Source of the DNA: Gammaproteobacteria bacterium
GTDB lineage: Bacteria > Pseudomonadota > Gammaproteobacteria > JAKDMP01
Direction: 5' to 3'
DNA: 64,000 nt
Assembly: GCA_027018875.1 (NCBI GenBank)
Contig: JALUYA010000047.1
Location: 1 to 64,000 of the forward strand
The notes under the pieces were generated by a model that had not been told where the DNA came from, ran no database searches, and worked only from the letters and a program-made list of their open reading frames with translations. Position 1 is the stretch's first letter, and every line of letters starts with the position of its first letter. Positions 5,923-22,755 of this stretch are shown piece after piece. The translations under genes were made by a program, and so were the position numbers.

Positions 5923-6826
5923 TTCCCTTCAGCTGTAACTCACAAACCGCCTGCAAGCCGTTAAGTTTTCTGAGCATCTCCGACGATACACCAATTCGCA
6001 GAAGCGACCTTACAGCCAGCCTGGAGATAGGCCATAGAATAAAACTCAATCGTGAGCCTACAGATACACGCTCCTCTATATATTCCCTACGAAATCCCAT
6101 ACCCTCCTTGAATCTCTTTAGTCCAGACAACTCACCTTGAATCGGCTTGAAGCCGATAGATATCTCAGCTTCCTGAACTTTTGAAAGTGACCACATGGCA
6201 TAATTATAGATAAGTGCATTATTAGGATATGCATTTAGATATTTCGGATCTGATCTGACAATAAGAATATTGCGTGTGACACCAATTCTGAACGCCAAGA
6301 GGAAGGCCGCAAGATCGCAGCCCACCCAAGCACCCCAATACTCAGCTTGATCAAACTTCAATGCCGCCTCGAAGTAACGCTTCCAATAACGTCTCCTAGA
6401 TATTGTCAAACGTCTCCCCTGTCTGCTAAACGTAAGCGCATTCAACTTTCCCGTCTCTGCTAATACCTCTCCCGGTGAAAGGGGCGCGGTACGACAGCGT
6501 TCACATCCTCGTCGCGTTTGGTTTCTCGTCTTTCCAGATAATGAGTTCATACTATATGGTGCCTTGATAACATGACGATATGAAGGGACACCTTCCCCGT
6601 CCATGCAGCAATGCCGAACAACCCCGGCGCCATGTGCATGCACCGCTACATAATCAATAGCCGCAGCACTTATTTTATTCTCAAACGGCACAGCCTGATA
6701 CACACTTCGCGCCACTTCCACCCACAACGATCCTGCCTCATTTAACACTTTTGTACCAGTAGCCCGCATGAATTCGCTGAAAGCCAGTGCATCACGTGCT
6801 GCTTCACTTTCCATTTCTTTTAACAT
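5912..6826 (-). CDS. FemAB/GNAT-like (BioF2-type) acyltransferase-like protein
   Basis: 304 residues from the ATG at 6826, chosen for GGAG 9 nt upstream; an in-frame TTG at 6841 is a weaker alternative. The start lies 23 nt inside the upstream membrane-protein gene, so translation is probably coupled. The N-terminal half carries SLSGKTRNQTRRGCERC, which resembles the 'K(T/S)RNxIRKA' motif of FemAB-like GNAT proteins in exopolysaccharide loci. The C-terminal half has WGAWVGCDLAAFLLAFRIG and YPNNALIYNYAMWSL, matching the GNAT acceptor region. Such proteins may transfer acyl or aminoacyl groups to sugars. The call rests on motif resemblance, and the true substrate is unknown. Confidence 0.68.
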   Translation of the reverse strand: MLKEMESEAARDALAFSEFMRATGTKVLNEAGSLWVEVARSVYQAVPFENKISAAAIDYVAVHAHGAGVVRHCCMDGEGVPSYRHVIKAPYSMNSLSGKTRNQTRRGCERCRTAPLSPGEVLAETGKLNALTFSRQGRRLTISRRRYWKRYFEAALKFDQAEYWGAWVGCDLAAFLLAFRIGVTRNILIVRSDPKYLNAYPNNALIYNYAMWSLSKVQEAEISIGFKPIQGELSGLKRFKEGMGFRREYIEERVSVGSRLSFILWPISRLAVRSLLRIGVSSEMLRKLNGLQAVCELQLKGNDG

Positions 6827-8585
6827 ACAAATTTTCTCCAAATGAACCAGTGTCAGCTGCCGCCAGTGACACCACTGTTGCCAACACTATGATCAGACTC
6901 GAGTTGAACAATGCATGAACAAAGAGCGCCTCGGTAAGGCCACCAAGAAAAATTCCAAAAGCGATGCCCCCCCCTATACTGGGATAGAGTTTATAGTTTA
7001 TTGTAGCAGCGGAACGCCCATACCTACAGGCGAATACCATCGACAATAACAAGATGACATATGCAATGCTGCCCCATACCCCCCCCCAAGACGCAGCCCA
7101 GAGTAGATCGTTGTGTGGATGAGCATGCGTGCCTCCAAGGTACACGGGGATTTGTCCCTCAGAAGACAGTGTCATCGCCTGTTCCCGATAGCCTCCGAGT
7201 CCATAGCCGATTAACGGTCGAGAAAAAAGCATAAGAAAAGCTCCACGCCACATCCAGAGTCGCTTTTCCACCGTGCCGGAGTCCCTCGGGAAAATAAATT
7301 GCCCTGGAACTATCTGAGTGGGAATAATCCAGACATCGTTTCCCGGCTTGACCACAACTGTCAGGTAACCATCTTGCTCTCCTTGGAATGGCACCTTAAC
7401 AAGTCTCCACTCACTCGAATTAACTGACACACCAGAAACCTTGGCCCCAAGAGAAAACAGTGCCGATCCTTTCACCAAGATTAATGCCGGTATATTTGAG
7501 TCCAATCGGACGGCATCTGGTATGTGAACACGATATGTGTTTTTTTTGCTATCATTAGAAATTTTTAAGTATGAATTACCGATACATTTTAACCAAGGAT
7601 ATTCCGACCAAGATTCCCGTGTACTCCTCACAACAATTATATTTCCTAGGCCACTACCACCTGTCACTGCGCGATCCGCCAACGAATGTAGTATTGAGCC
7701 CGTGTTCGGACACAGCAGCAACGATGCCGGCGACGCAGAAACACGCGGGACAGTAGGCCAGTGCAATGCCGTAATCTGCTGCCAATCTCGAAGAAATCGA
7801 ACACGTACAATACTGGAAACCAAGAACGGAGAGGCGACAATAATCCCAACCCCGCTTGCCACGAGAAAGGTACGCCGCAGTCGTTGATTGACTTTCCAAC
7901 TCTCATGCGCTACCCAATAGATACCCCATACACTTAAAACAAAGGCCACCCCAACCGCACCACGCGATCCCGAGAAGATAACTCCGGCCAGACTAACTGC
8001 ATAGAGAAGCCATAAGGCAATTTCTTTCCCTTCGCTTTTTGTCTTACCCTGAATCAGCATAAGACCGACGAAAGACTGAATAGCGAGAATCGTTCCATAA
8101 TCGATCGAAACTCCAGACGTACCCGTGGCTTGGCGGTGCAGCACAAGGCTTTGCACTATCCCATACAATGCCGCAATTGCTGCCCCACTCAGAAAAATCC
8201 AACCAAATTTATCAGGCTTTATGATCCTCCTCGCTGCCCACACAGCAGCCGCAGCCGGTATAAACAGCAACCACCTTCCCAACCTCCCGAGCATCCGAAA
8301 GCCTTCAGGAGGAGAGTCAGCCGCAACCGAAGCCACTACAGCTATTGCCACCATGAGTGCTGCGGCAACCCCGATATACCACAATGTCTTGGGCAAAAAT
8401 CGCCTACGCTCAAACCCAAATAATGCAGACACCACACCAATCAATGTAAGCAGGATAAGTGCTATCCCATCAACATGGGTTACCGTAAGTGCCCCGAATG
8501 AATAGAGTACAATCGTGGCAACAGCTGTCACACCAAGGAACCGATCAATCCCCCTGGTTCGTACTTCTTGCACCTTATCAATCAT
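6804..8585 (-). CDS. O-antigen ligase/polymerase-family membrane protein (PF04932-like)
   Basis: 593 residues from the ATG at 8585, which has GGAG 6 nt upstream; a GTG at 8606 is also in frame. Many transmembrane helices flank a long non-hydrophobic insert (roughly residues 265-430) rich in beta-like sequence, presumably periplasmic. After it comes RLWMWRGAFLMLFSRPLIGYGLGGY and then GGTHAHPHNDLLWAASWGGVWGS, the Wzy_C/WaaL signature with the H-x-x-N element. Members ligate or polymerise undecaprenyl-linked glycans at the periplasmic face. A second, smaller polymerase-like protein is encoded at 11033-12451, so one may be polymerase and the other ligase. The gene contains a G9 and a G8 tract on the coding strand (plus positions 7079-7087 and 6967-6974). 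Confidence 0.85.
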   Translation of the reverse strand: MIDKVQEVRTRGIDRFLGVTAVATIVLYSFGALTVTHVDGIALILLTLIGVVSALFGFERRRFLPKTLWYIGVAAALMVAIAVVASVAADSPPEGFRMLGRLGRWLLFIPAAAAVWAARRIIKPDKFGWIFLSGAAIAALYGIVQSLVLHRQATGTSGVSIDYGTILAIQSFVGLMLIQGKTKSEGKEIALWLLYAVSLAGVIFSGSRGAVGVAFVLSVWGIYWVAHESWKVNQRLRRTFLVASGVGIIVASPFLVSSIVRVRFLRDWQQITALHWPTVPRVSASPASLLLCPNTGSILHSLADRAVTGGSGLGNIIVVRSTRESWSEYPWLKCIGNSYLKISNDSKKNTYRVHIPDAVRLDSNIPALILVKGSALFSLGAKVSGVSVNSSEWRLVKVPFQGEQDGYLTVVVKPGNDVWIIPTQIVPGQFIFPRDSGTVEKRLWMWRGAFLMLFSRPLIGYGLGGYREQAMTLSSEGQIPVYLGGTHAHPHNDLLWAASWGGVWGSIAYVILLLSMVFACRYGRSAATINYKLYPSIGGGIAFGIFLGGLTEALFVHALFNSSLIIVLATVVSLAAADTGSFGENLYVKRNGK

Positions 8586-8664
8586 CCCATGCTCCGTGCT
8601 TTCCACACCACACGGCTATAAGCAAGCACATTTTCAAGCTGAACTTTTAGCTCAGCACACGGCA

Positions 8665-9642
8665 TTATCTAGCAACCCGCATGAAACGATGCCCCCACAG
8701 TTGCCAAAAATGCTTAAATACCGCCGCCCCACTCAAGCACAGACCCACAATCCAGATAAGCAACCTTCCGGCTTTCGGAACATAAAGCACATCGCCGCTA
8801 TAGCCCATCTGCTTCATCATCTTTCGGGTAACCGTCTCCACAATCACCCGGTTCAGCCAACCCAAGGTTCGCCGCCAAGCGTCGGCACGATGCCGCTCAG
8901 GTACCCCCCGAAGCACCAAACCATGAATTTGTTTTTCCTCCTCTGGAATTTCGTATTCTCGCCCTTCCTTCTTCCCGGATATTGCACACCCAAGATATTC
9001 CGCCAGATCCTTAATTACCGCATCAGGCCGCACAACAAATTCTTCGTAACGAACCTTAAAAAGGCTGAGATTTCCCCGAGCGGCTTCTACTTGGTGAAAT
9101 ATGAATTTCCATCTATAAGCCAACAGAAAGGCCCCAGGCCAACCCATCGTCTCCCACGGATTATACGGCCTAGGCGTATGCAGCTTCGAATTTGCAACCG
9201 CCCTCGGATCACGCACGATACAGATGATGCTGGCATCAGGAAAAACCTTAATGATTTCGCGCCAATATTTAATATGTTCTCCGCATTTAACCATGAGACA
9301 CGCACCATCTTTCGTGGTTACGATCCCTTTATGATAAGGCTCAAGAAGTGCCTGTATTATTTCCGCCCTCGTAAACGCCGGAGGATCACGTTCCCGCAAC
9401 GAATGCAGCAAGCCTTTAACATCCTCCATCTTTCCAGGCCAATTTCTCAAGTTCTGTCGATAGTTGAGTATTTTTATTAGCCTTTCTTCACTTATTTTAT
9501 ATAGCTCATCATCACGGAGCGCTAAAAGCCTTCCGGAGCTAATCTCGGGTGTTATACACATATTTACGATGGATTTGCTAAGCATTGATGCCAGCAACGT
9601 AGAGCCGCTGCGTGAATCGTACACCAGAAAAGCCAATTTCAT
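8665..9642 (-). CDS. PAPS-dependent sulfotransferase
   Basis: 325 residues. The N-terminus MKLAFLVYDSRSGSTLLASML is the 5'-phosphosulfate-binding loop of the sulfotransferase fold, and IICIVRDPRAVANSKL is the 3'-phosphate-binding motif (R and S). Both are at canonical positions (about 10-20 and 140-155). The domain also has FKVRYEEFVVRPDAVIKDLAEYLGC. This is the Sulfotransfer_3-like group that moves sulfuryl from PAPS to a hydroxyl or amine of glycans and small molecules. AAGGAA precedes the ATG at 9642. It lies between the flippase and the ligase-like gene, so a polysaccharide intermediate or its lipid-linked precursor is the most likely acceptor. Together with the sulfoquinovose module at 12.6-15.6 kb it gives the locus a second, chemically different use for PAPS. 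Confidence 0.9.
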   Translation of the reverse strand: MKLAFLVYDSRSGSTLLASMLSKSIVNMCITPEISSGRLLALRDDELYKISEERLIKILNYRQNLRNWPGKMEDVKGLLHSLRERDPPAFTRAEIIQALLEPYHKGIVTTKDGACLMVKCGEHIKYWREIIKVFPDASIICIVRDPRAVANSKLHTPRPYNPWETMGWPGAFLLAYRWKFIFHQVEAARGNLSLFKVRYEEFVVRPDAVIKDLAEYLGCAISGKKEGREYEIPEEEKQIHGLVLRGVPERHRADAWRRTLGWLNRVIVETVTRKMMKQMGYSGDVLYVPKAGRLLIWIVGLCLSGAAVFKHFWQLWGHRFMRVAR

Positions 9643-9699: not shown

Positions 9700-11055
9700 T
9701 TAAAAATGTAGCATGTTAGCGGTCATAGCAAACAAGTGCCCACTCCAGGGAGTGACAATATAGCTAGCAACTACCACGACTAAACCCCAAGCCCACCATG
9801 TTAAAAAAACCCTCCCCAATCGAGGGGAACGTATACCGATCAAATACGCTCGAAGTCCGACCATTATGATTTCACTGGCACTCCACGCGATCACCGCAGC
9901 CTTTGCACCCCTTCCGGACTGTGCATAAAAGATTCCGACAAAACTCAATATCCCCAGGACCAAGACTACTGTGTCTCCCCAATCCAACCGCATCGCATTA
10001 GATACGTACTTTTGCCAATAAGCAACGCCAGAATAATAATAGGCAGGCATAGCCAACACCATCACCTCCGCATAGCCACCAAATCGCCTACCCAAATATA
10101 AGGCGATCATCCCGGGTCCCACAGCGACCCCGACAACAGCCGCCATGAGCATGATCCCCGCGATCCAGCAGGTTTTTCGCGCCACCATGCCTTCGAACAC
10201 AGCAGTTTCTCCCGCATGATAGGCGCGCGACATACCGGGGAACGCGGCTGCAGTCATCGCAGTGACGATCAGTCCCCCCGCCCCAACCAACGCTACGATC
10301 GGACCAAAACCTGCTAGTTGTTGTTTCGCGCCACTAACGCCGATAAGAATGACCCCTAGACGCTGAGAAAGGCTTAGTATGAACAAAGAGATTCCCGCTG
10401 GAAAGGACAGTCGAATTAGCCGCCAAGTCTTCGCCAAGGAGAGAGATATCGGTTCGACGTGAAACCATTCTGTACCTATTTCCGCCGTCTCTCTCCTCCA
10501 ACGCCTTCCTTCAACGGCCCACCTTACTACACCTACGGTTAACCAAATGATAAGCAGTGCTGTCAGGCCTAACCCCAGGAATGCGCCTAGGCCCAGGGCC
10601 ACCGCCACAAGAATTCGCCCCCCCGCCCTGAAGGCGGCTTCGACATCCAAACGCTCCCTACCCCTCCACCACCAGAGAAACGGATCCGTATAGGTCTCGA
10701 AAAAACCCGCCGCTCCACATAGGGCCTTTTCCACCGGTGACAATCCTCCCAGCGGGAGCATAACGTAAAAACCAATCAATATTCCCGTGAAAAAAATCTT
10801 TTGGCCAAAGGGGGCAACCACTCCATGCCGACACCGTTGCTGGCGGCGTGCGACGTCCCGCGTGACCTCGATGCGAGCCCCAAAATCGGATATCACTTCA
10901 GAAACCCGTACCAGCATCAACGCAAACACGAAGTCAGCCATGTAACCCGACGATAAAAAGCGGGCAAGAAATCCCAAGAGAAGCACCTGGGCGATCCCCA
11001 TCGCCACCGACCCCACTACCGCCGCAGAAACGTTACGAATGTATTGTCTTGCCAC
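9700..11055 (-). CDS. Wzx-like lipid-linked oligosaccharide flippase (MOP superfamily)
   Basis: 451 residues, GTG start, about twelve predicted transmembrane helices spaced as in MOP/PST flippases. The N-terminus reads RNVSAAVVGSVAMGIAQVLLLGFLARFLSSGYMADFVFALMLVRV, with Arg and Asp residues in the helix 1-3 region. Such proteins translocate undecaprenyl-diphosphate-linked repeat units across the inner membrane. The start lies 23 nt inside the end of the Wzy-like gene, implying coupled expression. Membrane proteins of this family diverge quickly, so the call rests on topology and locus context. Confidence 0.82.
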   Translation of the reverse strand: MARQYIRNVSAAVVGSVAMGIAQVLLLGFLARFLSSGYMADFVFALMLVRVSEVISDFGARIEVTRDVARRQQRCRHGVVAPFGQKIFFTGILIGFYVMLPLGGLSPVEKALCGAAGFFETYTDPFLWWWRGRERLDVEAAFRAGGRILVAVALGLGAFLGLGLTALLIIWLTVGVVRWAVEGRRWRRETAEIGTEWFHVEPISLSLAKTWRLIRLSFPAGISLFILSLSQRLGVILIGVSGAKQQLAGFGPIVALVGAGGLIVTAMTAAAFPGMSRAYHAGETAVFEGMVARKTCWIAGIMLMAAVVGVAVGPGMIALYLGRRFGGYAEVMVLAMPAYYYSGVAYWQKYVSNAMRLDWGDTVVLVLGILSFVGIFYAQSGRGAKAAVIAWSASEIIMVGLRAYLIGIRSPRLGRVFLTWWAWGLVVVVASYIVTPWSGHLFAMTANMLHF

Positions 11056-12451
11056 TAGCCAGTCTCGTCCGCCTACCGGGCAAATACCTCATTGCAGCCA
11101 TCATCCCAATAGCCAGCCACACCAAGTAGCTGAGCGGCGTATGGCCAAGCAAGAGGTTGATGCTAGCCAAACCGATAACGAAAACGAAGACCAACATGAC
11201 CTGGGCGAGCGGACTTCCGGCGGCCCTATGCCGTGCCTGATAACCCAGATACACCGCAAACACCGCATAGGCCAGAACCCCCAGTACTCCATATGTACCC
11301 GGAACAAAAAGTATCGCCGTATGAGGTGATGCGAGTCCACCCTTCGCATATTGCTGCAAAAATACAGGCCAGTAAGACAGCCCCGTGCCAATAAACCAGT
11401 CCCAAAGTCCAAAATTAGTCACCACGGCATGCCAAGCGCTAAATCTATATGCCCCCCCAGTTTGCACCCTGAAAACATGCATTAATTGGGCTATGTTCAA
11501 CACCAGCCATGTACTTGCCACGATAACAAGCGGTGAAGATAACACAAGCAAATTCAATCGTCGCTTCAAACCCCAGCCGCACAGCGCGAATAGCGTCCAC
11601 GCCGCCACAAAAAAAAGCAAAACATTCTTTGATAACGTTGCGAGTGATACTGTTACTCCAATAATTAGAAAAACCGCCATCCATCCGACGCCCAGTGAAC
11701 CGCGCCTTGCATACTTGACAGCACTAACAAGAACCAGGAGCAATATGATACAAAACCCGAATCCGTCCGGCGTTACATAGGTGCCTGTCAATCTAAGCGC
11801 CTCCCCCCCTAATCCAGTAAGCTGCGCACTCGTATGGAGCGACTCCAGCCCACCTACTGACCGGTAGACCCCTATGCCTAACAGCGCCTGGAGAACAAGG
11901 GCAAGCATTGCGTTTCCAACCGCAGTCAAACACGTAACCACCAGCTTATGAGTTCCATCGCGATCGCTCGCGATGAGCGCCGCCCCCACATATCCCACAG
12001 CTAAAATAGTTAAGATCAACCCCCCTGTGATAAAAGGTGGTCTACGTACCGAAATCGGATAACCGCCAAAATAGCTCCGAACCAAGGTGATGACAAGTCC
12101 ATATATCACAACGGCACCCATCAGCATGACCACCCACATGTGCCGACTTCCCAACACCGGGCGAAACGAGCCCTGCCGCGTAGCGTGTATCACTCTCGGT
12201 AACGCATAATGCAATAGCACCACCCCGGCTACAAACGCGAACGCCGGATACCACAAACGGTTCGGCAATCCCGGCGCATCCTGAATAGACGCGATCACGA
12301 TAAGCAAGTAGGGGCCATACGCAGGAATCATGACTACTACAGCTGCAAGTGCTACCAAGCCTGAATAACCGCCTAAACCGCCCCACCAAGTGCTGGCATA
12401 AACACCCATAAGCACGATAAGCAGTCTAGGCAGGCTAACCCGAGTTAACAC
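11033..12451 (-). CDS. Wzy/O-antigen-ligase-like polytopic membrane protein
   Basis: 472 residues, GTG start, about eleven to twelve hydrophobic segments across the whole length. Near residue 350 the sequence WDWFIGTGLSYWPVFLQQYAKGGLASPHTAILFVPGTYG has the 'G-hG.. (H/S)-N/T' pattern of the Wzy_C periplasmic loop, here SPHTAIL. This fits an O-antigen or EPS polymerase better than a transporter. It lies 3' of the sulfoquinovose-synthase gene after a gap of 161 nt, and overlaps the flippase by 23 nt. With the WaaL-like protein at 6.8-8.6 kb it gives the locus a complete Wzx/Wzy-type machinery. The polymerase and ligase roles of the two proteins could be swapped. Confidence 0.78.
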   Translation of the reverse strand: MLTRVSLPRLLIVLMGVYASTWWGGLGGYSGLVALAAVVVMIPAYGPYLLIVIASIQDAPGLPNRLWYPAFAFVAGVVLLHYALPRVIHATRQGSFRPVLGSRHMWVVMLMGAVVIYGLVITLVRSYFGGYPISVRRPPFITGGLILTILAVGYVGAALIASDRDGTHKLVVTCLTAVGNAMLALVLQALLGIGVYRSVGGLESLHTSAQLTGLGGEALRLTGTYVTPDGFGFCIILLLVLVSAVKYARRGSLGVGWMAVFLIIGVTVSLATLSKNVLLFFVAAWTLFALCGWGLKRRLNLLVLSSPLVIVASTWLVLNIAQLMHVFRVQTGGAYRFSAWHAVVTNFGLWDWFIGTGLSYWPVFLQQYAKGGLASPHTAILFVPGTYGVLGVLAYAVFAVYLGYQARHRAAGSPLAQVMLVFVFVIGLASINLLLGHTPLSYLVWLAIGMMAAMRYLPGRRTRLASGKTIHS

Positions 12452-12612: not shown

Positions 12613-13785
12613 TTAATTCAGTTCTCCACTGCGGTGACAACCCCATGTCACCCGGGGTTGCACAATGCACGTATCAATGCGGGCCTTATATTGCTCAATG
12701 GTTCTAAGCATATCCATTACCACTTCGTCAGTCAATTTCTGGGGCTTGAAACCAAGCTCCACAAGTCCATGCCGCATAGGATTGTAGTAATGATCTTCGG
12801 CTTCCTTGCGTGGATTCGACACATGAGAAATCGCAACCTGAATATCAAGCCGCTGAGCAGCGCATACTACCCGCTCAGCCAACTCATTTACGGTAAAGGT
12901 CTCTGTAAATTGGTTAAATATACGCAAATCACCAGCTTGGGCAGGTTCTTCCAAAGCCAAGGTTACACATTGCAGTGTATCATTCAGATTAAGATATCCT
13001 CGTACCTGATCACCTTTCCCATATACAGTAAGCGGAATACCGGCAACAGCCTGCACCAGAAAACGGTTAATCACAGTGCCAAAAATATCATCGTAATGAA
13101 AACTCGGCATTAGTTCATTATCGAGTTCCGCCTCAGGTGTAGTTAATCCGTAAACCGGCCCTTGCATCAAATCGGTTACACGTAGGTTTGCCATACGCAC
13201 ATAAAACCATAATAGGTCGGTATCCATTATTTTCGTAGTATGGTAAAGACTGCCTGCTTGCCTTGGGAAGAGGAAACGATCCTTTCGCCCCTTGTGTTCA
13301 AGATCAATCCAACCTTCCTCAATATCAATGTTAGGCGTTCCGTACTCTCCCATCGTTCCAAGTTTTACAATCTGGCAACCTGGACGTTCTTGCATGACAG
13401 CCCAAACCACATTTAGGGTTGTCATTAAATTGTTCTTCAAGGTCAATGCCGCCTCTCCATGGCCGCGCATCGAGTAAGGGGCAGAAGGCTGCTCCGCATA
13501 ATGCACGAGGCCATCAGGACAAAAATCCGCAACGAGTGTACGGAGAAACTCGTAGTCGGTAATATCCCCAATGCATACATCAATTTTGTGTCCCGTCTTT
13601 TTCTCGAATAGGTCGGCTCGCTGTTCTAGGTTAGGGTTGGGCAAAAGCGACTCGGACCGGGTTTGAAACGCCAGCGTGCGACGCAGATAGTTGTCCACCA
13701 CCATCACTTCATGCTTCCGGGCTGCAAGATGCATGGCCGTAGGCCAACCCAGATATCCATCCCCTCCAAGAATCAATACTTTCAT
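12613..13785 (-). CDS. sqdB: UDP-sulfoquinovose synthase (SQD1/SqdB/Agl3 type)
   Basis: 390 residues; an extended SDR with N-terminal VLILGGDGYLGWPTAMHL, where the W after GYxG is typical of SQD1. Long stretches match the SQD1 family as I know it: HYAEQPSAPYSM, the near-invariant LGTMGEYGTPNIDIEEG, the catalytic YHTTK (YxxxK), VTDLMQGPVYG, LTVYGKGDQVRGYLNLNDTLQCV and RIFNQFTETFTVNELA. SQD1 oxidises UDP-glucose at C4, dehydrates it to a 5,6-ene and adds sulfite at C6 to give UDP-sulfoquinovose. It needs free or channelled sulfite. In this operon the gene two places upstream encodes a CysH-like reductase, an obvious sulfite source. No SqdX/SqdD-type lipid glycosyltransferase is seen nearby, so the sugar is probably destined for the polysaccharide rather than sulfolipid. 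Confidence 0.92.
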   Translation of the reverse strand: MKVLILGGDGYLGWPTAMHLAARKHEVMVVDNYLRRTLAFQTRSESLLPNPNLEQRADLFEKKTGHKIDVCIGDITDYEFLRTLVADFCPDGLVHYAEQPSAPYSMRGHGEAALTLKNNLMTTLNVVWAVMQERPGCQIVKLGTMGEYGTPNIDIEEGWIDLEHKGRKDRFLFPRQAGSLYHTTKIMDTDLLWFYVRMANLRVTDLMQGPVYGLTTPEAELDNELMPSFHYDDIFGTVINRFLVQAVAGIPLTVYGKGDQVRGYLNLNDTLQCVTLALEEPAQAGDLRIFNQFTETFTVNELAERVVCAAQRLDIQVAISHVSNPRKEAEDHYYNPMRHGLVELGFKPQKLTDEVVMDMLRTIEQYKARIDTCIVQPRVTWGCHRSGELN

Positions 13786-13804
13786 ATTTTCCTCCTCCTA
13801 CCAA

Positions 13805-14854
13805 TCAAGCCAATAACTTAGTACGAATCAACAGTTCGCAAAGCGCCTCCTGGGAAAGCGGCCTCTCTTCCCGAGAAGCATAAGCCTTAGTTACCGGCTG
13901 CGAGGATGCCCGGGGATATTCATACACAATGCGATCATACAAAGGCCGGAATGCCGGCAACACCACGAAATAATCCGGTAGCTCCAGTGCCCGGCGAGTT
14001 TCTTCCTCTGTCATAAGTTCTTCATACATTTTTTCCCCGGGGCGAGGGCCAGTCACCACGATCTCGATCTCCTCCGGATTGCGATGAAACCGTGGCGCCA
14101 ATTCCTTAATCATCACCTCAGCCAAATCACTGATCCTGGCCACCTCCATCTTGGTGATGAACACCTCGCCGCCACGGGCAAGAACCGCCGAGCCGATGAC
14201 AAGAGAAATCGCCTCATCTATGTCCATGATGAAACGGGACATTTCAGAGCTGGTGAGGGTCACTGGCCCACCATGTTCTATTTGCTTGCGGAAAATGTTT
14301 ATTACGGAACCGCTTGACCCCAACACGTTACCGAACCGGGTCGAGGCAAACACCGTTCTGCCATTTCCCGCCGTATTCGCCGCCGTGATAAGTCGCTCCC
14401 CCATCAACTTGCTGGTCCCCATAACGCTGGTTGGATTCACCGCCTTGTCGGAACTGGTGAAAATTACACGTTCCACGCCATACCGCAAAGCACCACTTAT
14501 CACTGCTTCCACGCCGATAATATTGGTTTTAAGCGCCTCCATAGGCGCCTTCTCACACTGGTATACGTGCTTAAGGGCAGCACAGTGAAAAACTATATCC
14601 ACCCCGTTCATGGATCGTTCTAGTCCGAGCCGATCGCGCACGTCCCCGACCATGAGCCTTACCTGCGTAAATTCTTCATATTCTTGTTCAAGATCGAAAA
14701 TTCCGTTTTCGCTAATATCTAATCCCCGAATGGTGATTCCTTCCACTTTTTCCATCCGTATTAAGTGCCGTAACAACCGGGATCCTACAGTTCCGCAAAC
14801 CCCCGTAATCAGGATGCACTTCCCTTTCAAGCATGTTTTCCAATCCTCCGTCAC
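13805..14854 (-). CDS. FlaA1/CapD-like soluble SDR, UDP-sugar 4,6-dehydratase/epimerase
   Basis: 349 residues without the membrane domain of the WbpM-like protein, so of the short FlaA1/PseB/CapE size. It shows CILITGVCGTVGSRLL (Rossmann), GDVRDRLGL, HCAALKHVYQCEKAPMEA, the active-site block SSDKAVNPTSVMGTSKL (Met in place of Tyr, then K), RFGNVLGSSGSV and TGPRPGEKMYEELM. These enzymes dehydrate, and sometimes 5-epimerise, UDP-GlcNAc-type substrates. It lies between the CysH-like gene (18 nt upstream) and sqdB (19 nt downstream) in one tight operon. Its product may be a second 6-deoxy amino sugar, or it may take part in the same sulfosugar route. The sequence does not decide between these. 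Confidence 0.88.
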   Translation of the reverse strand: MTEDWKTCLKGKCILITGVCGTVGSRLLRHLIRMEKVEGITIRGLDISENGIFDLEQEYEEFTQVRLMVGDVRDRLGLERSMNGVDIVFHCAALKHVYQCEKAPMEALKTNIIGVEAVISGALRYGVERVIFTSSDKAVNPTSVMGTSKLMGERLITAANTAGNGRTVFASTRFGNVLGSSGSVINIFRKQIEHGGPVTLTSSEMSRFIMDIDEAISLVIGSAVLARGGEVFITKMEVARISDLAEVMIKELAPRFHRNPEEIEIVVTGPRPGEKMYEELMTEEETRRALELPDYFVVLPAFRPLYDRIVYEYPRASSQPVTKAYASREERPLSQEALCELLIRTKLLA

Positions 14855-14872
14855 GCTTCCGCCTCCTTATAT

Positions 14873-15628
14873 TTAACTTTCATTAAAATGAATTCCACAT
14901 TCCAAATTTTGGCCCGGTCCCTTACAGGGATCATAGTAATCTTCGTTCACATGTATCTCCCGCTGGAGACAATAAGAAAGCGCATCCTCCTGCCTCCAAT
15001 CCAGGATAGGATACGCAGCAAGGATACCATAGCGCAGCCTGACAAGTGGAAGTGCAGAGCGTGCTCGACTTTCATCATGCATGAGCCCAGAAATCCACAC
15101 CCGCGCCTGCATGTCGCGTAAGGCTCGGCGCAAAGGTAAAACCTTAACCCGCCGACAATAGCTGGAAAATGCAGCGCTTCCTACAGGTGGAACAGGCTCC
15201 CGTCCCTGTTCATAGACATACAGATTCAACCCCAAAGTACGCGTGAAGTGCGTGGCAAGCTCAAGCGTCCTACGTGTCTCATGCCCATGTCGGATCGTGA
15301 CCACGCGCATCTGCGGAAACACCTCCGCCGCAATCGTGAGAAGCGCACCGGAGACAGGACCGAAACTCGTGGTCAGCACCACACCCTGTCCAAACCACTC
15401 TACTATCCGGCGTACCCTTTCTCGCGCACCCAGAGGCGCGAGCACCGCGGTGATACGCCGCGCCGTTTCGTCAGTAGGGGCATCACTGATCCCAAAATGC
15501 CGAACTTGGCAATCGTCCTCGCACATCATCTGTTCCACGCGGACAGCACAGCAGGAGAATACCAATGCCGTAAAAGGATCCTTTCTAACCCGAAGACATC
15601 CGACCGGCTCCGTGTTCGTCGCTGCCAT
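14873..15628 (-). CDS. CysH-like (P)APS reductase family protein
   Basis: 251 residues from the ATG at 15628 (GGAAG 6 nt upstream); a TTG at 15670 and an ATG at 15529 are alternatives. It shows the PP-loop VVLTTSFGPVSGALLTIA, VWISGLMHDESRARSALPLV, YPILDWRQEDALSYCL and the C-terminal ECGIH carrying the catalytic Cys of CysH (EC-G-[LI]-H). It lacks the paired CC and CxxC cysteines that bind 4Fe-4S in APS reductases: the first site reads SYCRRVKVLPLRRAL. That leaves a PAPS-type, cluster-free reductase or a divergent paralogue. CysH converts PAPS and thioredoxin to sulfite and PAP. It is the first gene of the reductase-dehydratase-sqdB operon, so I infer that it supplies sulfite for sulfoquinovose rather than for cysteine. 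Confidence 0.84.
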   Translation of the reverse strand: MAATNTEPVGCLRVRKDPFTALVFSCCAVRVEQMMCEDDCQVRHFGISDAPTDETARRITAVLAPLGARERVRRIVEWFGQGVVLTTSFGPVSGALLTIAAEVFPQMRVVTIRHGHETRRTLELATHFTRTLGLNLYVYEQGREPVPPVGSAAFSSYCRRVKVLPLRRALRDMQARVWISGLMHDESRARSALPLVRLRYGILAAYPILDWRQEDALSYCLQREIHVNEDYYDPCKGPGQNLECGIHFNES

Positions 15629-16034: not shown

Positions 16035-16324
16035 TCACAACCTCACCCCCGTCTTTTTTGCAGTTTGAAAAATCGGCCGCTCCGGTGAGTTCGGAGTGCG
16101 GATAATTAAATCAATTTTCCGAAATCCAAGTGCACGCTGGAGTTTGCTCATTAACCGCAGTTGCTCCATCATTTGAATCTCGGTTCCCGTTTCGATATAA
16201 AGATCGATATCCTCCCCTTTCTGCGATCATCAACCCGACTTCCCAAAAGCCAAACCTTCGCATCTTCACGCGTCCGGCTTACGATGTGTCGGCTCAAACT
16301 CGCAGCATCCTTTGTCAATCGCAT
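16035..16324 (-). pseudogene. MNT-type nucleotidyltransferase (antitoxin) remnant, frameshifted
   Basis: From the ATG at 16324 the frame reads MRLTKDAASLSRHIVSRTRE, then DAKVWLLGSRVDDRRKG. It then shifts by one base at AAAGGGGAGGATATCGAT; the other frame continues DIDLYIETGTEIQ, LGFRKIDLIIRTPNSPERP and KKTGVRL to a TGA at 16037-16035. Joined, this is a full MNT nucleotidyltransferase of about 96 residues with the GSRVDD..GxDIDL active site. It is the same family as the intact copies at 18410-18727 and 19013-19312. Its leader and first nine codons (MRLTKDAAS) recur at 17961. The frameshift and the lack of a recognisable toxin after it indicate decay. Confidence 0.75.
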
Positions 16325-16422
16325 GGAACTTATCCGGTTTATGGCATATATCTTAAATGAGAAGCCAAAAAAGCGGGGATCCTGCCGGGTCCCGGGTTTC
16401 CGTTGCGTTGCGCCCGGAATGA
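16296..16422. repeat. Leader repeat, copy 1 (upstream of the MNT remnant)
   Basis: About 125 bp spanning the start and upstream region of the MNT remnant. It recurs at 17935-18064 with around 85% identity by eye. Shared landmarks on the plus strand are CATCCTTTGTCAATCGCATG, GAAGCCAAAAAAGCGG and CGTTGCGTTGCGCCCGG. On the minus strand it gives a TTGGCT / AT-rich block that may be a promoter, followed by ATGCGATTGACAAAGGATGC. The two copies lead into different MNT genes, so this looks like a fixed leader with exchangeable downstream coding sequence. Confidence 0.75.
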
Positions 16423-16435
16423 CGGGAGTCGCCGC

Positions 16436-16570
16436 CTACGCGAGCCTGGTGAAAGGCAGGCATTCATTCGGGGAACCTCGTAAAGTATGGGCGCACACCG
16501 GTCGGGCGAACGCGGTGAAGTCGCCCGGATGCGTTCGCGCAGTAGTGTACACGATCTGCCAGTCGATGGC
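16436..16570 (-). pseudogene. HEPN-toxin 3' fragment, copy 1
   Basis: Minus-strand translation AIDWQIVYTTARTHPGDFTA, followed by FARPVCAHTLRGSP, is clearly related to the C-terminus of the intact HEPN protein at 17072-17503 (AIDWHIVHAIAQTHLDDFTAFARQIHVHILRGP). No HEPN catalytic motif or start is present upstream, so only the tail survives. It lies directly before leader copy 1. The order tail-then-leader is repeated at 18.0-18.1 kb, as if a toxin-antitoxin operon once ended where the next began. Confidence 0.7.
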
Positions 16571-16632
16571 GCGCGGCTGCCTCATGCCGTGACGCCCATG
16601 CTCGAACCCCGGCGCCAAGCGCCTTACCGATG

Positions 16633-16657
16633 GGTAACACCGCAGAGCGGTGTTACC
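16633..16657. repeat. Perfect 10-bp dyad, copy 1
   Basis: GGTAACACCG - CAGAG - CGGTGTTACC: a perfect 10-bp inverted repeat with a 5-nt loop, immediately before the 120-bp repeats. The identical dyad recurs at 18188-18212, again just before a 120-bp repeat copy, so dyad and repeat travel together. There is no T-run on either strand, so it is not an obvious terminator. A related dyad (GTGACACC..GGTGTCAC) is at 18121-18143. Confidence 0.8.
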
Positions 16658-16660
16658 AGG

Positions 16661-16870
16661 GAAGACCGTATCGGGGAGCGCCTGGTTGTACAGTGTGAAT
16701 TCCTCGCCACGTTGGGGTTCGCAGAGCTCACCACCAACCTACCCGGGGCTTCGTCACCTCGTAGGTTGCAAATGATTCGGGAAGACCATATCGGGGAGCG
16801 CCGAGTTGTACAGCGTGAGTTCCTCGCCACGTTGCGGTTCGCAAGGCTCACCGGCAACCTACCCGCGCCC
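16661..16870. repeat. 120-bp tandem repeat, two copies
   Basis: Unit 1 begins GAAGACCGTATCGGGGAGCG at 16661 and unit 2 begins GAAGACCATATCGGGGAGCG at 16781, a period of 120 bp. The second copy is cut short near 16870. Shared blocks include TTGTACAG.GTGA.TTCCTC, CGCCACGTTG.GGTTCGCA and CAACCTACCCG. A third copy lies at 18214-18335. Open frames through it on both strands have no family resemblance and are probably by-products of the repeat. I see no function. Confidence 0.8.
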
Positions 16871-16967
16871 TGGTCTCTCTACCGTGAACCACGACAGGAT
16901 CTGCGTAACCCTGCTCATCATCGCGTCAGGGCGGGAGATACGGAAGGCTCCTGACTTCTTGACCTGG

Positions 16968-16999
16968 ATCCCGGGTCTCCACTGCGTTCCGCCCGGGAT
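16968..16999. repeat. Palindromic ATCCCGGG...CCCGGGAT element
   Basis: ATCCCGGG and CCCGGGAT flank a 16-nt loop containing ACTGCGTTCCG, followed by GACGAAAAC. Decayed relatives lie at 16385-16426 and 18020-18064 (GTTGCGTTGCGCCCGG). It resembles the short dispersed palindromes found between genes in many proteobacteria. The 16871-17071 interval holds nothing else that I recognise. Confidence 0.6.
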
Positions 17000-17071
17000 G
17001 ACGAAAACAAAAGGCTGCGCTGCACCCGGGATACCGGCAACGGCCACGTACCATGGTTTGGTGAAACGCGG

Positions 17072-17503
17072 TTATTCACCGGCCGGCCCTCGCAAAATGT
17101 GGACGTGTATCTGCCGGGCGAACGCAGTGAAGTCATCCAAATGGGTCTGGGCAATGGCATGCACGATGTGCCAGTCGATAGCGAGGTAGTTGTGTATCGC
17201 AATATTACGGAAGCCAACAGCCTTTTTTAGGCGATCGGCCAACGCCCGGTCGATACAGTCGATCTCGGCGAGGGCATCGAAAATGTGCCCCATGGTGTCG
17301 GGTGGGGCAAAATCGCGGTCCGCAACGAGGTAAGCGCCAATATCCACGCAGAGCTGGACAGCGCGGGTCAGGTTGAGTGAAACAATGTCCTGGGCATCGA
17401 GATCACGTGCCAGTGCGTCGGCTTGCGCAGGGCACTTTTGCTGAATACGCTGCACACAGTGCCGCAAGGATTCCAGTTTCTGTTCGATCACTTCCCGATC
17501 CAT
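17072..17503 (-). CDS. hepT: HepT-like HEPN-domain ribonuclease toxin
   Basis: 143 residues, all-helical by composition. The HEPN motif is intact: RNIAIHNYLAID (near residue 107) supplies the R-x4-H and the downstream Tyr of HepT toxins. The start ATG at 17503 has GGAGG 5 nt upstream and lies 16 nt inside the upstream MNT gene, the standard antitoxin-toxin overlap. HepT proteins are tRNA- or mRNA-directed toxins that the cognate MntA antitoxin AMPylates on the Tyr (type VII toxin-antitoxin). It is the only complete HEPN gene in this island; tail fragments of homologues are at 16436-16570 and 18062-18115. Confidence 0.9.
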   Translation of the reverse strand: MDREVIEQKLESLRHCVQRIQQKCPAQADALARDLDAQDIVSLNLTRAVQLCVDIGAYLVADRDFAPPDTMGHIFDALAEIDCIDRALADRLKKAVGFRNIAIHNYLAIDWHIVHAIAQTHLDDFTAFARQIHVHILRGPAGE

Positions 17504-17886
17504 GACCGCCTCCGCTCGGCAAGAATTCTACGCTGATAGGGCATGAAATCGGCTTCTTCGAATAGATGCCGCTTGAGGAGTTCGGCATAGTGGTGATCGC
17601 TGCCCAGAATACGCCTCCCATGCTGGAGAATCTGGCCTAGCAGCGGTTCACCCACGGTATTGAGATCGACCAGATCCACAGCCCGCCCCGTCACCTCGGC
17701 CAGTTCCCCGATGAGGTTGATCCTTGCCACGCTCGTCAGCAGGTGTCCGGCATCGACCGCCAGGTCGAGGTCGCTGTCCGCATGGGAACGGCCCGCTGCG
17801 AGGGAACCGAACAGTACGGCCAGGCGGATATCCGGGTGACGGGCAAGGACGCCGTGTAGCCGTTTTAGCAGGTTTTTATTCGGCAT
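17488..17886 (-). CDS. mntA: MntA-like nucleotidyltransferase antitoxin
   Basis: 132 residues from the ATG at 17886 (MPNKNLLKRLHGVLARHPDI); a frame open to 17961 would add MRLTKDAAS-type leader codons shared with the remnant at 16324. The minimal nucleotidyltransferase motif is intact: AVLFGSLAAGRSHADSDLDLAV (GSx10DxD), followed by RAVDLVDLNTVGEPLLGQIL. This matches MntA antitoxins, which neutralise HepT by AMPylation. No strong ribosome-binding site precedes 17886, so the longer form starting at 17961 inside the leader repeat is possible. It pairs with the overlapping hepT downstream. Confidence 0.88.
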   Translation of the reverse strand: MPNKNLLKRLHGVLARHPDIRLAVLFGSLAAGRSHADSDLDLAVDAGHLLTSVARINLIGELAEVTGRAVDLVDLNTVGEPLLGQILQHGRRILGSDHHYAELLKRHLFEEADFMPYQRRILAERRRSWIGK

Positions 17887-17934
17887 ATCGACCCGAGAGG
17901 AAGACGTCTGAAAGACCGTGTGAATTATATTCGA

Positions 17935-18064
17935 ACTCGCGGCATCCTTTGTCAATCGCATGGAACTTACCCGATTTTTATAGTATATTTCTTATAATGA
18001 GAAGCCAAAAAAGCGGTAATCCTGCCAGGTTCCAGGTTCCAGGTTTCCGTTGCGTTGCGCCCGG
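17935..18064. repeat. Leader repeat, copy 2 (upstream of mntA)
   Basis: Matches 16296-16422 across CATCCTTTGTCAATCGCATG, the AT-rich block, GAAGCCAAAAAAGCGG and CGTTGCGTTGCGCCCGGA. On the minus strand a TTGGCT and TATACT/TACTAT pair lies about 35 nt before the ATG at 17961 and could be a promoter. Compared with copy 1, this copy jumps at CGCCCGGA directly to the HEPN tail, missing about 100 bp present in copy 1. The jump is between two short CGCCCGGA direct repeats (copy 1 positions near 16412 and 16519), which suggests deletion by recombination. Confidence 0.75.
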
Positions 18065-18115
18065 ATGCGTTCGCGCAATGGTGTACACGATCTGCCAGTC
18101 GATAGCGAGGTAGAT
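18062..18115 (-). pseudogene. HEPN-toxin 3' fragment, copy 2
   Basis: Minus-strand reading IYLAIDWQIVYTIARTHP, close to the intact HepT segment NYLAIDWHIVHAIAQTHL and to fragment 1 at 16436-16570. Only about 18 codons remain, truncated on both sides. It abuts leader copy 2, the same order as in copy 1. Confidence 0.65.
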
Positions 18116-18120
18116 CCCTC

Positions 18121-18143
18121 GTGACACCGCTCCGTGGTGTCAC
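18121..18143. repeat. GTGACACC/GGTGTCAC dyad
   Basis: GTGACACC - GCTCCGT - GGTGTCAC, an 8-bp inverted repeat similar in design to the GGTAACACCG dyad 45 bp further on, but with a different sequence. It is absent from copy 1 at the equivalent place. No T-run is present. Confidence 0.6.
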
Positions 18144-18187
18144 GCTTCCAGCTCGTGCCTGATCTCGGCGCCAAGCGCCTTCCGATG

Positions 18188-18335
18188 GGTAACACCGCAG
18201 AGCGGTGTTACCAGGAAAGACCGTATCGGGGAACGCCGGGTTGTACAGTGTGAGTTCCTCGCCATGTTGCGGTTCTCTTCGCTCACCGGCAACCTACCCG
18301 GGGCTTCGTCACCTCGTAGGTTGCGAATGATTCGG
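18188..18335. repeat. Dyad copy 2 plus third copy of the 120-bp repeat
   Basis: The perfect dyad GGTAACACCG..CGGTGTTACC at 18188-18212 is followed at 18214 by AAAGACCGTATCGGGGAACG, the third copy of the repeat described at 16661-16870. It ends near 18335 at GCGAATGATTCGG, the junction at which unit 1 passes to unit 2 in the first block. Here only one unit is present, so copy number differs between the two blocks (2 versus 1). Confidence 0.75.
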
Positions 18336-19544: not shown

Positions 19545-20945
19545 TTATGGGCTCTCCGGGCTAAGTCGGCGGCGCACGGCGGCTACATAGTTGACCAGTG
19601 CCGCAGCGAGAAGTGCCAGGAACACCCCGATGACGGCGCCGAGGATGGCTATGACCTTCCTACCCAGCCCGACCGGATTAATCGAAATACCGGGTTGGGC
19701 CGCAAGCTTGGTCGCGTTGAGGTTTGCCAGCCGGACATTTAATACCTGAATCGCGGCTTTCTGGTCGGCAATTTGCGTGGCTTGTTTGGACTGAAAGGAA
19801 GTAATCGCAACCTGGGTGGCGTGCACGGAGGCGGATGCCTGCTTCAATTTGCGCTGATGGGAAGCCAGAAAGCTGGCCAGGGCCTGTTTATATTGATCTA
19901 CAGCCCGGTTGGCAATCACCAATTCGCGTTGGGTCGCGGTGATCTTATTCTCCACGGCTTTAAACTGTTGCGGCAAATTGACCAAAAGATTTCTTTCTGC
20001 AAGGTTTACCTGGTTGATCGTACGCTGCTCCTCGGTGCTGAGCAGGAGAACTGCCGTTGCCTGCGTCGGCGTTTGTGGCCTCTCTGAGGCGGTAAGAACC
20101 GCTTTTTGTACCTGTACCAGGTGTCCCTTCAGCTGTTTTGTTTCCGCTTGGTACAGTTTGCGGGCCGCATCAAGAGAGGACTTCCTTACCCCAAGGGCCT
20201 GGAGTTCTGCCTGCAGGTTCTTTACCTTGGCCTCGGCCGTAGCGATTGCCTGCTTACGGGTCAAAACTTGCTGCTGATAGGCAGCCTTATCCTTTAAACC
20301 TTGCAGCTTGAGCTGAGACTTCAGAAGCCTTAGGCGCAATGGGGTAAGATTGGCTTGAACGACCGTTTGATTTTGGAGCAAGGCCAACCGGTTTTGCGCT
20401 TGCGCCAGGGAGTGCTCGAGATTGCCCCGCAAGATCCGAATGCTCGGCGCATCCCGCGCTACCAATGCATTGACCGCTTCGAGTTCCACCTGCTTATAGG
20501 CGGCGGCAAGTTTCAGAGTCCCCTTGCCGGTAAGCACCACGAGATTGGTTTTCGGCGGATTCTCCACTTTGATCCGGATGCTCCGGCGCTTAATTCCCTG
20601 GCTGGCGGCAACCCGGTGTATGGCCTCGGGCAGGAACGCCTTCTCGATCACGGTGACTGCCGATTCAGGCGCTTCGATGGGGATTACGTCCCCTTTGGGC
20701 GTTGTGTAGTGACCCAGCCCCACCACGGCGGTATAGCGATAGGTACGCGGCAGAGCGAAGGCAAGCGCCAGCCCAAGGCCGGTGCAGAGCAGAAAGATGG
20801 TGAGCATCAGTTTCCAGCGCCGCCACAGACGGACCCCGAGATCGACCAGGTCGATCTCATCGTTGGGACTGGAATAGGGGATCAGCGCCCGGGGGTCGGG
20901 TGGCGCCGGGTCAGGCGGCGCCGTGGGGCGGTTATCTTCGGCCAT
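19545..20945 (-). CDS. Wzz-type polysaccharide co-polymerase (chain-length determinant)
   Basis: 466 residues from the ATG at 20945; an open frame reaches 20978. A cytoplasmic Pro-rich N-terminus (PTAPPDPAPPDPRALIPYSS) is followed by EIDLVDLGVRLWRRWKLMLTIF, the Wzz/FepE/Etk entry into the first transmembrane helix. A periplasmic domain holds long Gln/Ala/Leu-rich coiled coils. A second helix near the C-terminus (VIAILGAVIGVFLALLAAALVNYVAAV) completes the two-helix PCP architecture. It lacks a C-terminal tyrosine kinase. The family sets O-antigen or EPS chain length together with Wzy. As the first gene of the minus-strand locus it is separated from the rest by the MNT island. Confidence 0.9.
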   Translation of the reverse strand: MAEDNRPTAPPDPAPPDPRALIPYSSPNDEIDLVDLGVRLWRRWKLMLTIFLLCTGLGLALAFALPRTYRYTAVVGLGHYTTPKGDVIPIEAPESAVTVIEKAFLPEAIHRVAASQGIKRRSIRIKVENPPKTNLVVLTGKGTLKLAAAYKQVELEAVNALVARDAPSIRILRGNLEHSLAQAQNRLALLQNQTVVQANLTPLRLRLLKSQLKLQGLKDKAAYQQQVLTRKQAIATAEAKVKNLQAELQALGVRKSSLDAARKLYQAETKQLKGHLVQVQKAVLTASERPQTPTQATAVLLLSTEEQRTINQVNLAERNLLVNLPQQFKAVENKITATQRELVIANRAVDQYKQALASFLASHQRKLKQASASVHATQVAITSFQSKQATQIADQKAAIQVLNVRLANLNATKLAAQPGISINPVGLGRKVIAILGAVIGVFLALLAAALVNYVAAVRRRLSPESP

Positions 20946-21016
20946 CTTGATCGGGTTCCTCCTTGCCAAGCCGCACATTATAGGGGATCATCACCCGAAT
21001 TAAAGGATCAACCCTT

Positions 21017-21791: not shown

Positions 21792-22579
21792 AAAGGGGAC
21801 AGATTTATTTATTGCCACTACCGGCCTGATTAGGCCGTCCCCGGGCCCGGAATTCTATTCTGCGGCCTAGAATCTTCTCAACCTCATTAACAAACCTGTC
21901 ATTTCCGGTCAGTTGTCCTCGCTGCAGTGCCTGGCGTATCAGACCCAGCTCCCGCTCGGGTATGGCTTCATGGATAATGCGACTGTACTGCCGACGCCGT
22001 TCTGCTTCTGTTGAACCAAGCCCAAGATAACTGGGATCACGATCAATCCATTCATCCATTTCAATTCCCACCCGCCGGCGGTAACTCGACCACAAATACT
22101 CATCCGGCCTACAGACCATACGCGCACGCACCGGGTTAAGTTCGATATACCGGCAGCATGCCAGCAAGTATCGATCGGTCTGTACCGGACTCGATTTGTA
22201 ACGGCTTTCCCACAATGTGCCAGACCGCCCTTCCCGCTTATTGCGCCGGCGGGTCGCCCGTGCTGCCAGCGCCTTCATCAGCCGCCCCATCGCTTCAGGT
22301 GACTCCCCCGGAGCCAACAAAAGATGCACATGGTTTGTCATCAGGCAGTACGCATATACACGTACATCAAACAATTCCTTCAGCTCTCGCAGGTCATTCA
22401 GATAACGACGAAAATCCGCTTCATCCGCAAATACAACTTGGCGGTTGTGCCCCCGCTGGAGCACGTGGTGCGGGTAATTCGGCAATACAACCCGGCCTAC
22501 CCTTGGCATCGCCGGCCTCCTTGGTATTCCGATGTAGGTCAACTTTAACCCACAAGAGGCAAAAAATAAATCTGTCCCC
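21792..22579 (-). mobile_element. REP-associated tyrosine transposase (RAYT) element with 16-bp inverted ends
   Basis: 788 bp bounded by GGGGACAGATTTATTT at the left and its exact reverse complement AAATAAATCTGTCCCC at the right, enclosing one transposase gene on the minus strand. The left boundary coincides with the truncation point of the ImmA/IrrE gene. An internally deleted copy lies at 21017-21146. Confidence 0.82.
21805..22509 (-). CDS. REP-associated tyrosine transposase (TnpA_REP, IS200-like Y1 family)
   Basis: 234 residues from the ATG at 22509 (GGAGG 6 nt upstream). The N-terminus MPRVGRVVLPNYPHHVLQRG is typical of RAYTs. The HUH motif is MTNHVHLLLAP and the catalytic-Tyr region is YLLACCRYIELNPVRARMV. 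GTLWESRYKSSPVQT and EYLWSSYRRR follow. Family members excise and join single-stranded REP/BIME sequences and are usually domesticated, single-copy genes. All landmarks look intact, so the protein is probably functional. Confidence 0.9.
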   Translation of the reverse strand: MPRVGRVVLPNYPHHVLQRGHNRQVVFADEADFRRYLNDLRELKELFDVRVYAYCLMTNHVHLLLAPGESPEAMGRLMKALAARATRRRNKREGRSGTLWESRYKSSPVQTDRYLLACCRYIELNPVRARMVCRPDEYLWSSYRRRVGIEMDEWIDRDPSYLGLGSTEAERRRQYSRIIHEAIPERELGLIRQALQRGQLTGNDRFVNEVEKILGRRIEFRARGRPNQAGSGNK

Positions 22580-22755
22580 TTTTCTCCCCCTTTTCTCCCG
22601 AACCCCGTGAGCCACACCCCCGCCAAGAAACTACTTTAGCAAGGGCGCTTGATCTCCGCTACCATGCAAAATCTAATGGTAGACCCCGTGGTGGAGTCAA
22701 CCGGGGAGGCGGCTGGCCGTTATTGGTTTTTGTGTGGGTTCTTTTGCGGTGAGAT

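Follow-up and report, generated by a model that had tools for sequence, protein, structure and literature searches.

A CysH-like reductase, a dehydratase and an SqdB-like synthase form a candidate operon for a sulfonated surface sugar in a gammaproteobacterium

Introduction

Sulfoquinovose is found in the surface N-glycans of Sulfolobus, where it is supplied by the Agl3 pathway, and nucleoside diphosphate (NDP)-glucose-5,6-ene is the sulfite-accepting intermediate in Agl3 (PMC4388408). Among sugar nucleotide dehydratases, Pen of Bacillus thuringiensis is a 5,6-dehydratase of uridine diphosphate (UDP)-N-acetylglucosamine (UDP-GlcNAc) that makes UDP-GlcNAc-5,6-ene (PMC8987622). Here, we analyze a three-gene cluster in a 64,000-nucleotide (nt) stretch of DNA, the window, from Gammaproteobacteria bacterium (GenBank assembly GCA_027018875.1, contig JALUYA010000047.1, positions 1 to 64,000). 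The cluster encodes a CysH-like protein, a UDP-sugar dehydratase and an SqdB-like synthase. Like the Agl3 pathway it would make a sulfonated sugar nucleotide for a surface glycan and not for a lipid. Its setting differs: a bacterial locus of probable Wzx/Wzy type that encodes a Pen-like dehydratase and has a CysH of its own. We consider it probable that the operon makes a 6-sulfonated (carbon–sulfur bonded) sugar nucleotide for surface polysaccharide and has its own source of sulfite.

Results

The three open reading frames (ORFs) follow one another on the minus strand and are predicted to encode a reductase of 3′-phosphoadenosine 5′-phosphosulfate (PAPS) or adenosine 5′-phosphosulfate (APS), a dehydratase and a sulfite-adding synthase:

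14873–15628, minus strand: CysH-like protein with a PAPS/APS reductase fold (PF01507, 2.1e-23); the true start is probably ~15529
14897–14899, minus strand: codon of Cys244, the catalytic cysteine of ECGIH (ECG is present in all of the 28 CysH proteins aligned)
13805–14854, minus strand: soluble CapD/Pen/FlaA1-like UDP-sugar dehydratase with an SDK..MxxxK active-site motif (PF02719, 4e-89)
12613–13785, minus strand: SqdB/SQD1-like sugar nucleotide synthase, putatively sulfite-adding, from the Pro101 clade (NF041015, 3.7e-136)
13486–13488, minus strand: codon of Pro100, by alignment the equivalent of SQD1/Agl3 Arg101

Only 18 nt (14855–14872) separate the first gene from the second and 19 nt (13786–13804) the second from the third, and AGGAGG-type ribosome-binding sites stand directly ahead of the dehydratase and sqdB-like genes. 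These coordinates agree with a first-pass annotation made from the sequence alone, and the families that it named (CysH-like, UDP-sugar dehydratase, SQD1-type synthase) are borne out by profile and structure searches.

The sulfur economy of the genome is consistent with a dedicated sulfite supply. The window genome is 2.2 Mb and 95% complete, and all absences reported here rest on targeted searches of draft genomes. The window CysH is its sole PF01507 protein, so the genome has no second CysH and no CysD. Further along the window contig lies a Sat-CysC (ATP-sulfurylase/APS-kinase) fusion of 573 amino acids (aa), which means that PAPS can be made and that its reduction can proceed only via the operon CysH. 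No sulfite reductase was found in the genome with PF01077 or TIGR02041, both of which matched positive-control genomes; the sulfite from CysH would therefore not serve ordinary cysteine synthesis, unless the gene lies in the missing ~5%. Sulfite reductase was undetected in the window genome (G000) and also in a relative (G001), and a reduced or organic sulfur source may be needed.

We searched 369 genomes of the class and 399 of the phylum for SqdB and read 5–20 kb around each SqdB locus, with genes marked by profile. The SqdB tree has two groups, a clade of 26 loci that includes the window (support 100/96; the Pro101 clade) and a second set of 33 loci that centers on sulfolipid SqdB of the Rhodobacter/Rhizobium type. 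The first-pass annotation had proposed looking for cysH–sqd1 neighbors in glycan loci, and such neighbors do occur: CysH is present in four Pro101-clade loci, those of the window and of genomes G234, G232 and G202. G234 has the same cysH–dehydratase–sqdB order as the window, with a CysH that is 43–45% identical (L049:17286-17972) and is again the sole PF01507 protein of its genome, and no sulfite reductase was found there with the same two models. G232 carries a run of CysH, two epimerases, dehydratase and SqdB on one strand, and G202 has a second CysH within the SqdB cluster beside a separate assimilatory copy. The four loci with CysH within 10 kb of SqdB compare with 0.066 expected (Poisson 8e-7, or 3e-5 without the window). 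In the CysH tree these proteins form two SqdB-associated subfamilies apart from the assimilatory enzymes, the window with G234 (100/99) and G232 with G202 (99/92), of which the second grouping is less secure given the long branches in the tree.

In genome G139 the two activities are physically joined, also in a polysaccharide locus. One uninterrupted ORF of 678 aa (L115:607-2643, on G139:C53) combines an APS reductase with a UDP-sulfoquinovose synthase. A thioredoxin-type APS reductase that has the motifs CC, CAPC and ECGIH makes up the first third (238 bits to TIGR02055, which exceeds the cut-off), and the remainder is a synthase of the Arg101 type that belongs to the other SqdB group; unlike the window operon, the fusion thus has a canonical APS reductase, with the CC and CAPC cysteines, and an Arg101-type SqdB. 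It adjoins a flippase gene and a NusG/RfaH-like gene, and G139 also holds a separate assimilatory-type CysH. The recruitment of at least two CysH subfamilies, together with the fusion, is strong evidence for CysH feeding sulfite to SqdB. L116, the sister of this locus and a polysaccharide locus in another genome of the class, has three consecutive genes, for an APS kinase, a UDP-glucose dehydrogenase-like protein and SqdB (L116:7471-10771), which places the APS kinase two genes from SqdB.

Other searches were less productive. A scan of genome contigs with two narrow CysH-pair patterns returned only the known relative DAHXNI01 (the G234 contig, ‘Proteobacteria bacterium’). Plasmid SqdB loci (Marinovum, Rhodococcus, Pseudonocardia and Rhizobium) have no annotated CysH, and the window CysH matched only assimilatory-type CysH on plasmids by tblastn (~27–30%). 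Two genomes, G119 and G330, were considered as further cases of CysH without sulfite reductase, having been missed by PF01077, and were dropped; CysI C-terminal sequence lies in frame just upstream of the G119 CysH. Publications that pair sulfoquinovose with cysH were, as judged by title and abstract, on other subjects.

The window CysH itself keeps the fold and the catalytic motif of the reductases. Its AlphaFold model (predicted local distance difference test, pLDDT, 84.5) finds its best fold matches in PAPS/APS reductases (6vpu, 1sur and 7lhs), with the PAPS reductases of Vibrio vulnificus and Escherichia coli at E 6e-15 to ~1e-14, its PF01507 match exceeds the cut-off for the PAPS_reduct domain, and the catalytic ECGxH is kept as ECGIH. 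Residues 1–45 are modelled at low pLDDT and align with nothing in the relative (L049), so that a start near M34/M35 is likelier than one at 15628. The cysteines that bind [4Fe-4S] in APS reductases (CC, CxxC) were not found in the window protein, which has a single C158 and C235 instead; compact PAPS-type CysH likewise lacks them. The window CysH resembles the compact assimilatory enzymes of the class, encoded beside DUF934 or CysB, in its ECGxH motif and in a short C-terminus without the APS-reductase CxxC loop, but it differs from them in two substitutions and in extra cysteines. In both the window and G234 proteins the near-invariant Asp113 is replaced by Arg and Arg183 by Met/Ile, and in the substrate region IRHGHE/VRHGHE and GLMH/GLIH (window and L049) stand in place of DxGY and GxRR. 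Because Asp113 and Arg183 are replaced, PAPS/APS binding by this pair may be altered. The window CysH is likely, though not certain, to be active with PAPS; use of APS or altered kinetics is possible.

Two other readings of this protein need to be weighed. It could be a different kind of PP-loop superfamily enzyme, for example a sulfurtransferase or an adenylating enzyme, that acts on the sugar pathway and has no PAPS reductase activity. The two substitutions fit such an enzyme, as do C158, C220 and C235, common to both members, and the presence of the sulfurtransferases TtuA and LarE lower among the fold matches. However, the catalytic motif is intact, the top fold matches are all PAPS/APS reductases, and in other SqdB loci, as in the fusion, its position is taken by APS reductases with the usual motifs, which makes this reading unlikely. 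A plain assimilatory PAPS reductase, placed in a polysaccharide locus by chance, would account for its being the only CysH of the genome and for its nearest outgroup, compact CysH beside DUF934 and sulfite reductase, or CysB. But no sulfite reductase was found to consume the sulfite, either here or in the like-arranged G234, the tree check that the first-pass annotation had suggested does separate the pair from assimilatory CysH on a long, well supported branch, and independent linkages and a fusion exist elsewhere; we regard chance placement as quite improbable.

The SqdB-like protein, the only SqdB in the genome, matches NF041015 (NCBIfam UDP-sulfoquinovose synthase) over its full length at 454 bits, against an equivalog cut-off of 575. 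Its nearest solved structure is plant SQD1 (6e-120; 48% identity in the fold alignment), to which its AlphaFold model aligns with a template modelling (TM)-score of 0.94. With the SQD1/Agl3/SqdB synthases it shares the fold, the nicotinamide adenine dinucleotide (NAD) site and Tyr-xxx-Lys, and it keeps the catalytic Thr145, Tyr182, His183 and Lys186 and the following Met145/Glu147/Tyr148. It differs from them at position 101 (SQD1/Agl3 numbering) and in belonging to a clade of its own, mostly paired with a dehydratase. Position 101, which may line the sugar C2 pocket like its counterpart in UDP-GlcNAc 4-epimerases, is Pro in 26/26 sequences of the window clade. Arg stands there in SQD1, in the two actinobacterial SqdB and throughout the other group (35/35 sequences). 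The R101A mutant of Agl3 is inactive (PMC4388408). Judged by alignment, the Pro101 clade fails one canonical feature of a UDP-sulfoquinovose synthase while its other catalytic machinery is kept.

A role of this SqdB in making the sulfolipid sulfoquinovosyl diacylglycerol, its position in a glycan locus being accidental, would suit a genome with a single SqdB. It is nevertheless very improbable, given that the clade is separate from the SqdB of alphaproteobacterial loci of the sulfolipid type (the Marinovum locus has a glycogenin-like glycosyltransferase) and that, in those loci that we read, Pro101-clade SqdB is surrounded by glycan genes.

The middle gene gives a further indication of the substrate. 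By profile search it is a CapD/PseB-type dehydratase (Polysacc_synt_2, 4.1e-89), and within the Pen, CapE, FlaA1 and PseB family its closest solved relative is Pen (6bwc; 247 bits over residues 9–348 versus 187 for the next). Unlike Pen, it carries the SDK..MxxxK of PglF/WbpM: Met replaces the catalytic Tyr, the [ST]DKxnYx3K triad is absent from it, and DKA..VMGxxK is found in every homologue with a readable motif. Met for Tyr is the pattern of PglF/WbpM, a 4,6-dehydratase (PMC8987622), so the window enzyme could equally be a 4,6-dehydratase. A CapD/Pen-like dehydratase belongs to the SqdB cluster at 20/26 Pro101-clade loci, mostly adjoining SqdB, and at 0/33 loci of the other group, and NeuB lies within ~10 kb of SqdB at 9/26 and 0/33, respectively. 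In three Pro101-clade loci (L053:9284-13691, L061:1-3869 and L063:9155-14299), SqdB forms a compact cluster with NeuB, a cytidine monophosphate (CMP)-transferase-type protein and a member of the UDP-GlcNAc 2-epimerase family, in which the transferase and epimerase calls come partly from N-terminal sequence.

The invariant Pro101, the dehydratase and NeuB associations and Pen as the best dehydratase match favor UDP-GlcNAc or another N-acetylhexosamine over UDP-glucose as substrate, which would yield a 2-acetamido-2,6-dideoxy-6-sulfo-hexose (UDP-6-sulfo-GlcNAc type); we put the chances of this at about even. A sulfonated N-acetylhexosamine and other sulfonated sugars thus carry about equal weight, with plain sulfoquinovose as the main rival. 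Under that rival the SqdB-like protein is an ordinary UDP-sulfoquinovose synthase acting on UDP-glucose, and the product of the dehydratase is an unrelated deoxy-amino sugar of the same repeat unit. It draws on the best family match, the nearest structure and the retained catalytic residues, but has to contend with the clade-wide loss of an Arg whose replacement kills Agl3, a score under the equivalog cut-off and a dehydratase tied to this clade. We see it as a real possibility, if the lesser one.

The operon lies in a surface-polysaccharide locus of probable Wzx/Wzy type, in which Wzx and Wzy themselves are putative:

206–2239, minus strand: membrane UDP-GlcNAc 4,6-dehydratase, PglF/WbpM-like (PF02719, 2e-110, and CoA_binding_3)
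2272–2883, minus strand: initiating sugar-phosphate transferase, PglC/WbaP-like (PF02397, 1.3e-59)
2880–4139, minus strand: DegT-type sugar aminotransferase (PF01041, 5e-123)
4759–5922, minus strand: family 2 glycosyltransferase (PF00535, 5e-16)
6804–8606, minus strand: O-antigen ligase/polymerase-like membrane protein (PF04932, 7.9e-6, under the gathering cut-off)
8665–9642, minus strand: sulfotransferase family protein (PF13469, 1.1e-18)
9700–11055, minus strand: multi-spanning protein, probable Wzx flippase (8 predicted transmembrane segments, no Pfam match)
11033–12451, minus strand: multi-spanning protein, probable Wzy polymerase (11 predicted transmembrane segments, no Pfam match)
19545–20978, minus strand: Wzz chain-length determinant (PF02706, 7e-9; two transmembrane segments)

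The first-pass annotation had assigned the cluster to a Wzx/Wzy locus. Wzz, the sugar-phosphate transferase and the family 2 glycosyltransferase are confirmed by profile, whereas the labels Wzx and Wzy rest on topology, as neither protein has a Pfam family. The two overlapping genes (9700–12451) may encode a very divergent flippase and polymerase; BLASTP of both against their counterparts in L049 gave no match. The sulfotransferase is likely a second PAPS user in the locus. Genes of this family occur in four Pro101-clade loci (window 8665–9642, L049:5143-6069, L051:5859-6884 and L054:6191-7111), and profile marking found none in the 33 loci of the other group. The same glycan may carry both O-sulfation and C-sulfonation. 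Upstream of the operon, at 16294–18335, are dispersed direct repeats of 43–154 nt that are up to 94% alike and are interleaved with a HepT/MNT-type pair (17072–17961), and a REP-associated transposase-like ORF lies at 21805–22626.

Discussion

We infer every reaction of the proposed pathway from the genes, their order, predicted folds, families and comparative linkage. Sulfate would be converted to PAPS by the Sat-CysC fusion of the same contig, and PAPS or APS would then be reduced to sulfite by the CysH-like protein, probably with thioredoxin as partner. The Pen/CapD-like dehydratase, the SqdB-like enzyme or both would form the 5,6-ene of a UDP-sugar, to which the SqdB-like enzyme would add sulfite at C6, and glycosyltransferases, flippase and polymerase would incorporate the sulfonated sugar into the glycan.

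Several points weigh against this scheme. At 95% completeness the absences from the genome fall short of proof; 22/26 Pro101-clade SqdB loci have no CysH nearby, although several of these contigs are short; and the window locus itself has no NeuB. To these are added the substitutions in the substrate region of CysH, with the altered PAPS/APS binding that they may entail, the loss from SqdB of the Arg101 that is essential in Agl3, and the 4,6-dehydratase pattern of the middle gene.

The first-pass annotation had proposed a surface glycan containing sulfoquinovose or another 6-sulfonate sugar, made with a dedicated sulfite generator. The sulfite supply has held up, with a sole CysH, no detectable sulfite reductase, independent linkages and a natural fusion; sulfoquinovose as the sugar is not secured, given the missing Arg101 and a dehydratase and NeuB that speak for N-acetylhexosamine chemistry. 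The comparative evidence gives good support to CysH as a sulfite generator dedicated to an SQD1-type synthase, and the case is now stronger than the annotation could know, while the sugar may be new. More tentatively, and at somewhat less than even chances, the Pro101 clade may be a new enzyme class that combines CysH-derived sulfite with a UDP-N-acetylhexosamine, the 5,6-ene being given by a Pen-like dehydratase, to make UDP-2-acetamido-2,6-dideoxy-6-sulfo-sugars for surface glycans, with the pathway of L053, L061 and L063, whose SqdB is an immediate neighbor of NeuB, the 2-epimerase and the CMP-transferase, leading onward to C9-sulfonated sialic-acid-like sugars. To our knowledge, no such C9-sulfonated sugars are known from nature.

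As far as we know, it is not settled how sulfonated-sugar synthases receive their sulfite, a toxic and reactive ion. The dedicated CysH and the natural CysH–SqdB fusion make this question directly testable with two to three soluble proteins, and the L115 fusion protein is a good candidate for biochemistry in its own right. If the clade acts on UDP-GlcNAc, it would provide a new sugar nucleotide and a new source of surface glycans with strongly acidic character, perhaps including sulfonated nonulosonic acids, and many genes annotated as ‘UDP-sulfoquinovose synthase’ in bacterial glycan loci would be misnamed. Bacteria of the kind represented by the window join the likely producers of sulfonated sugars, and a surface coat of unusual sulfonated sugars, which may be of an undescribed type, is probable in the carriers of this operon.

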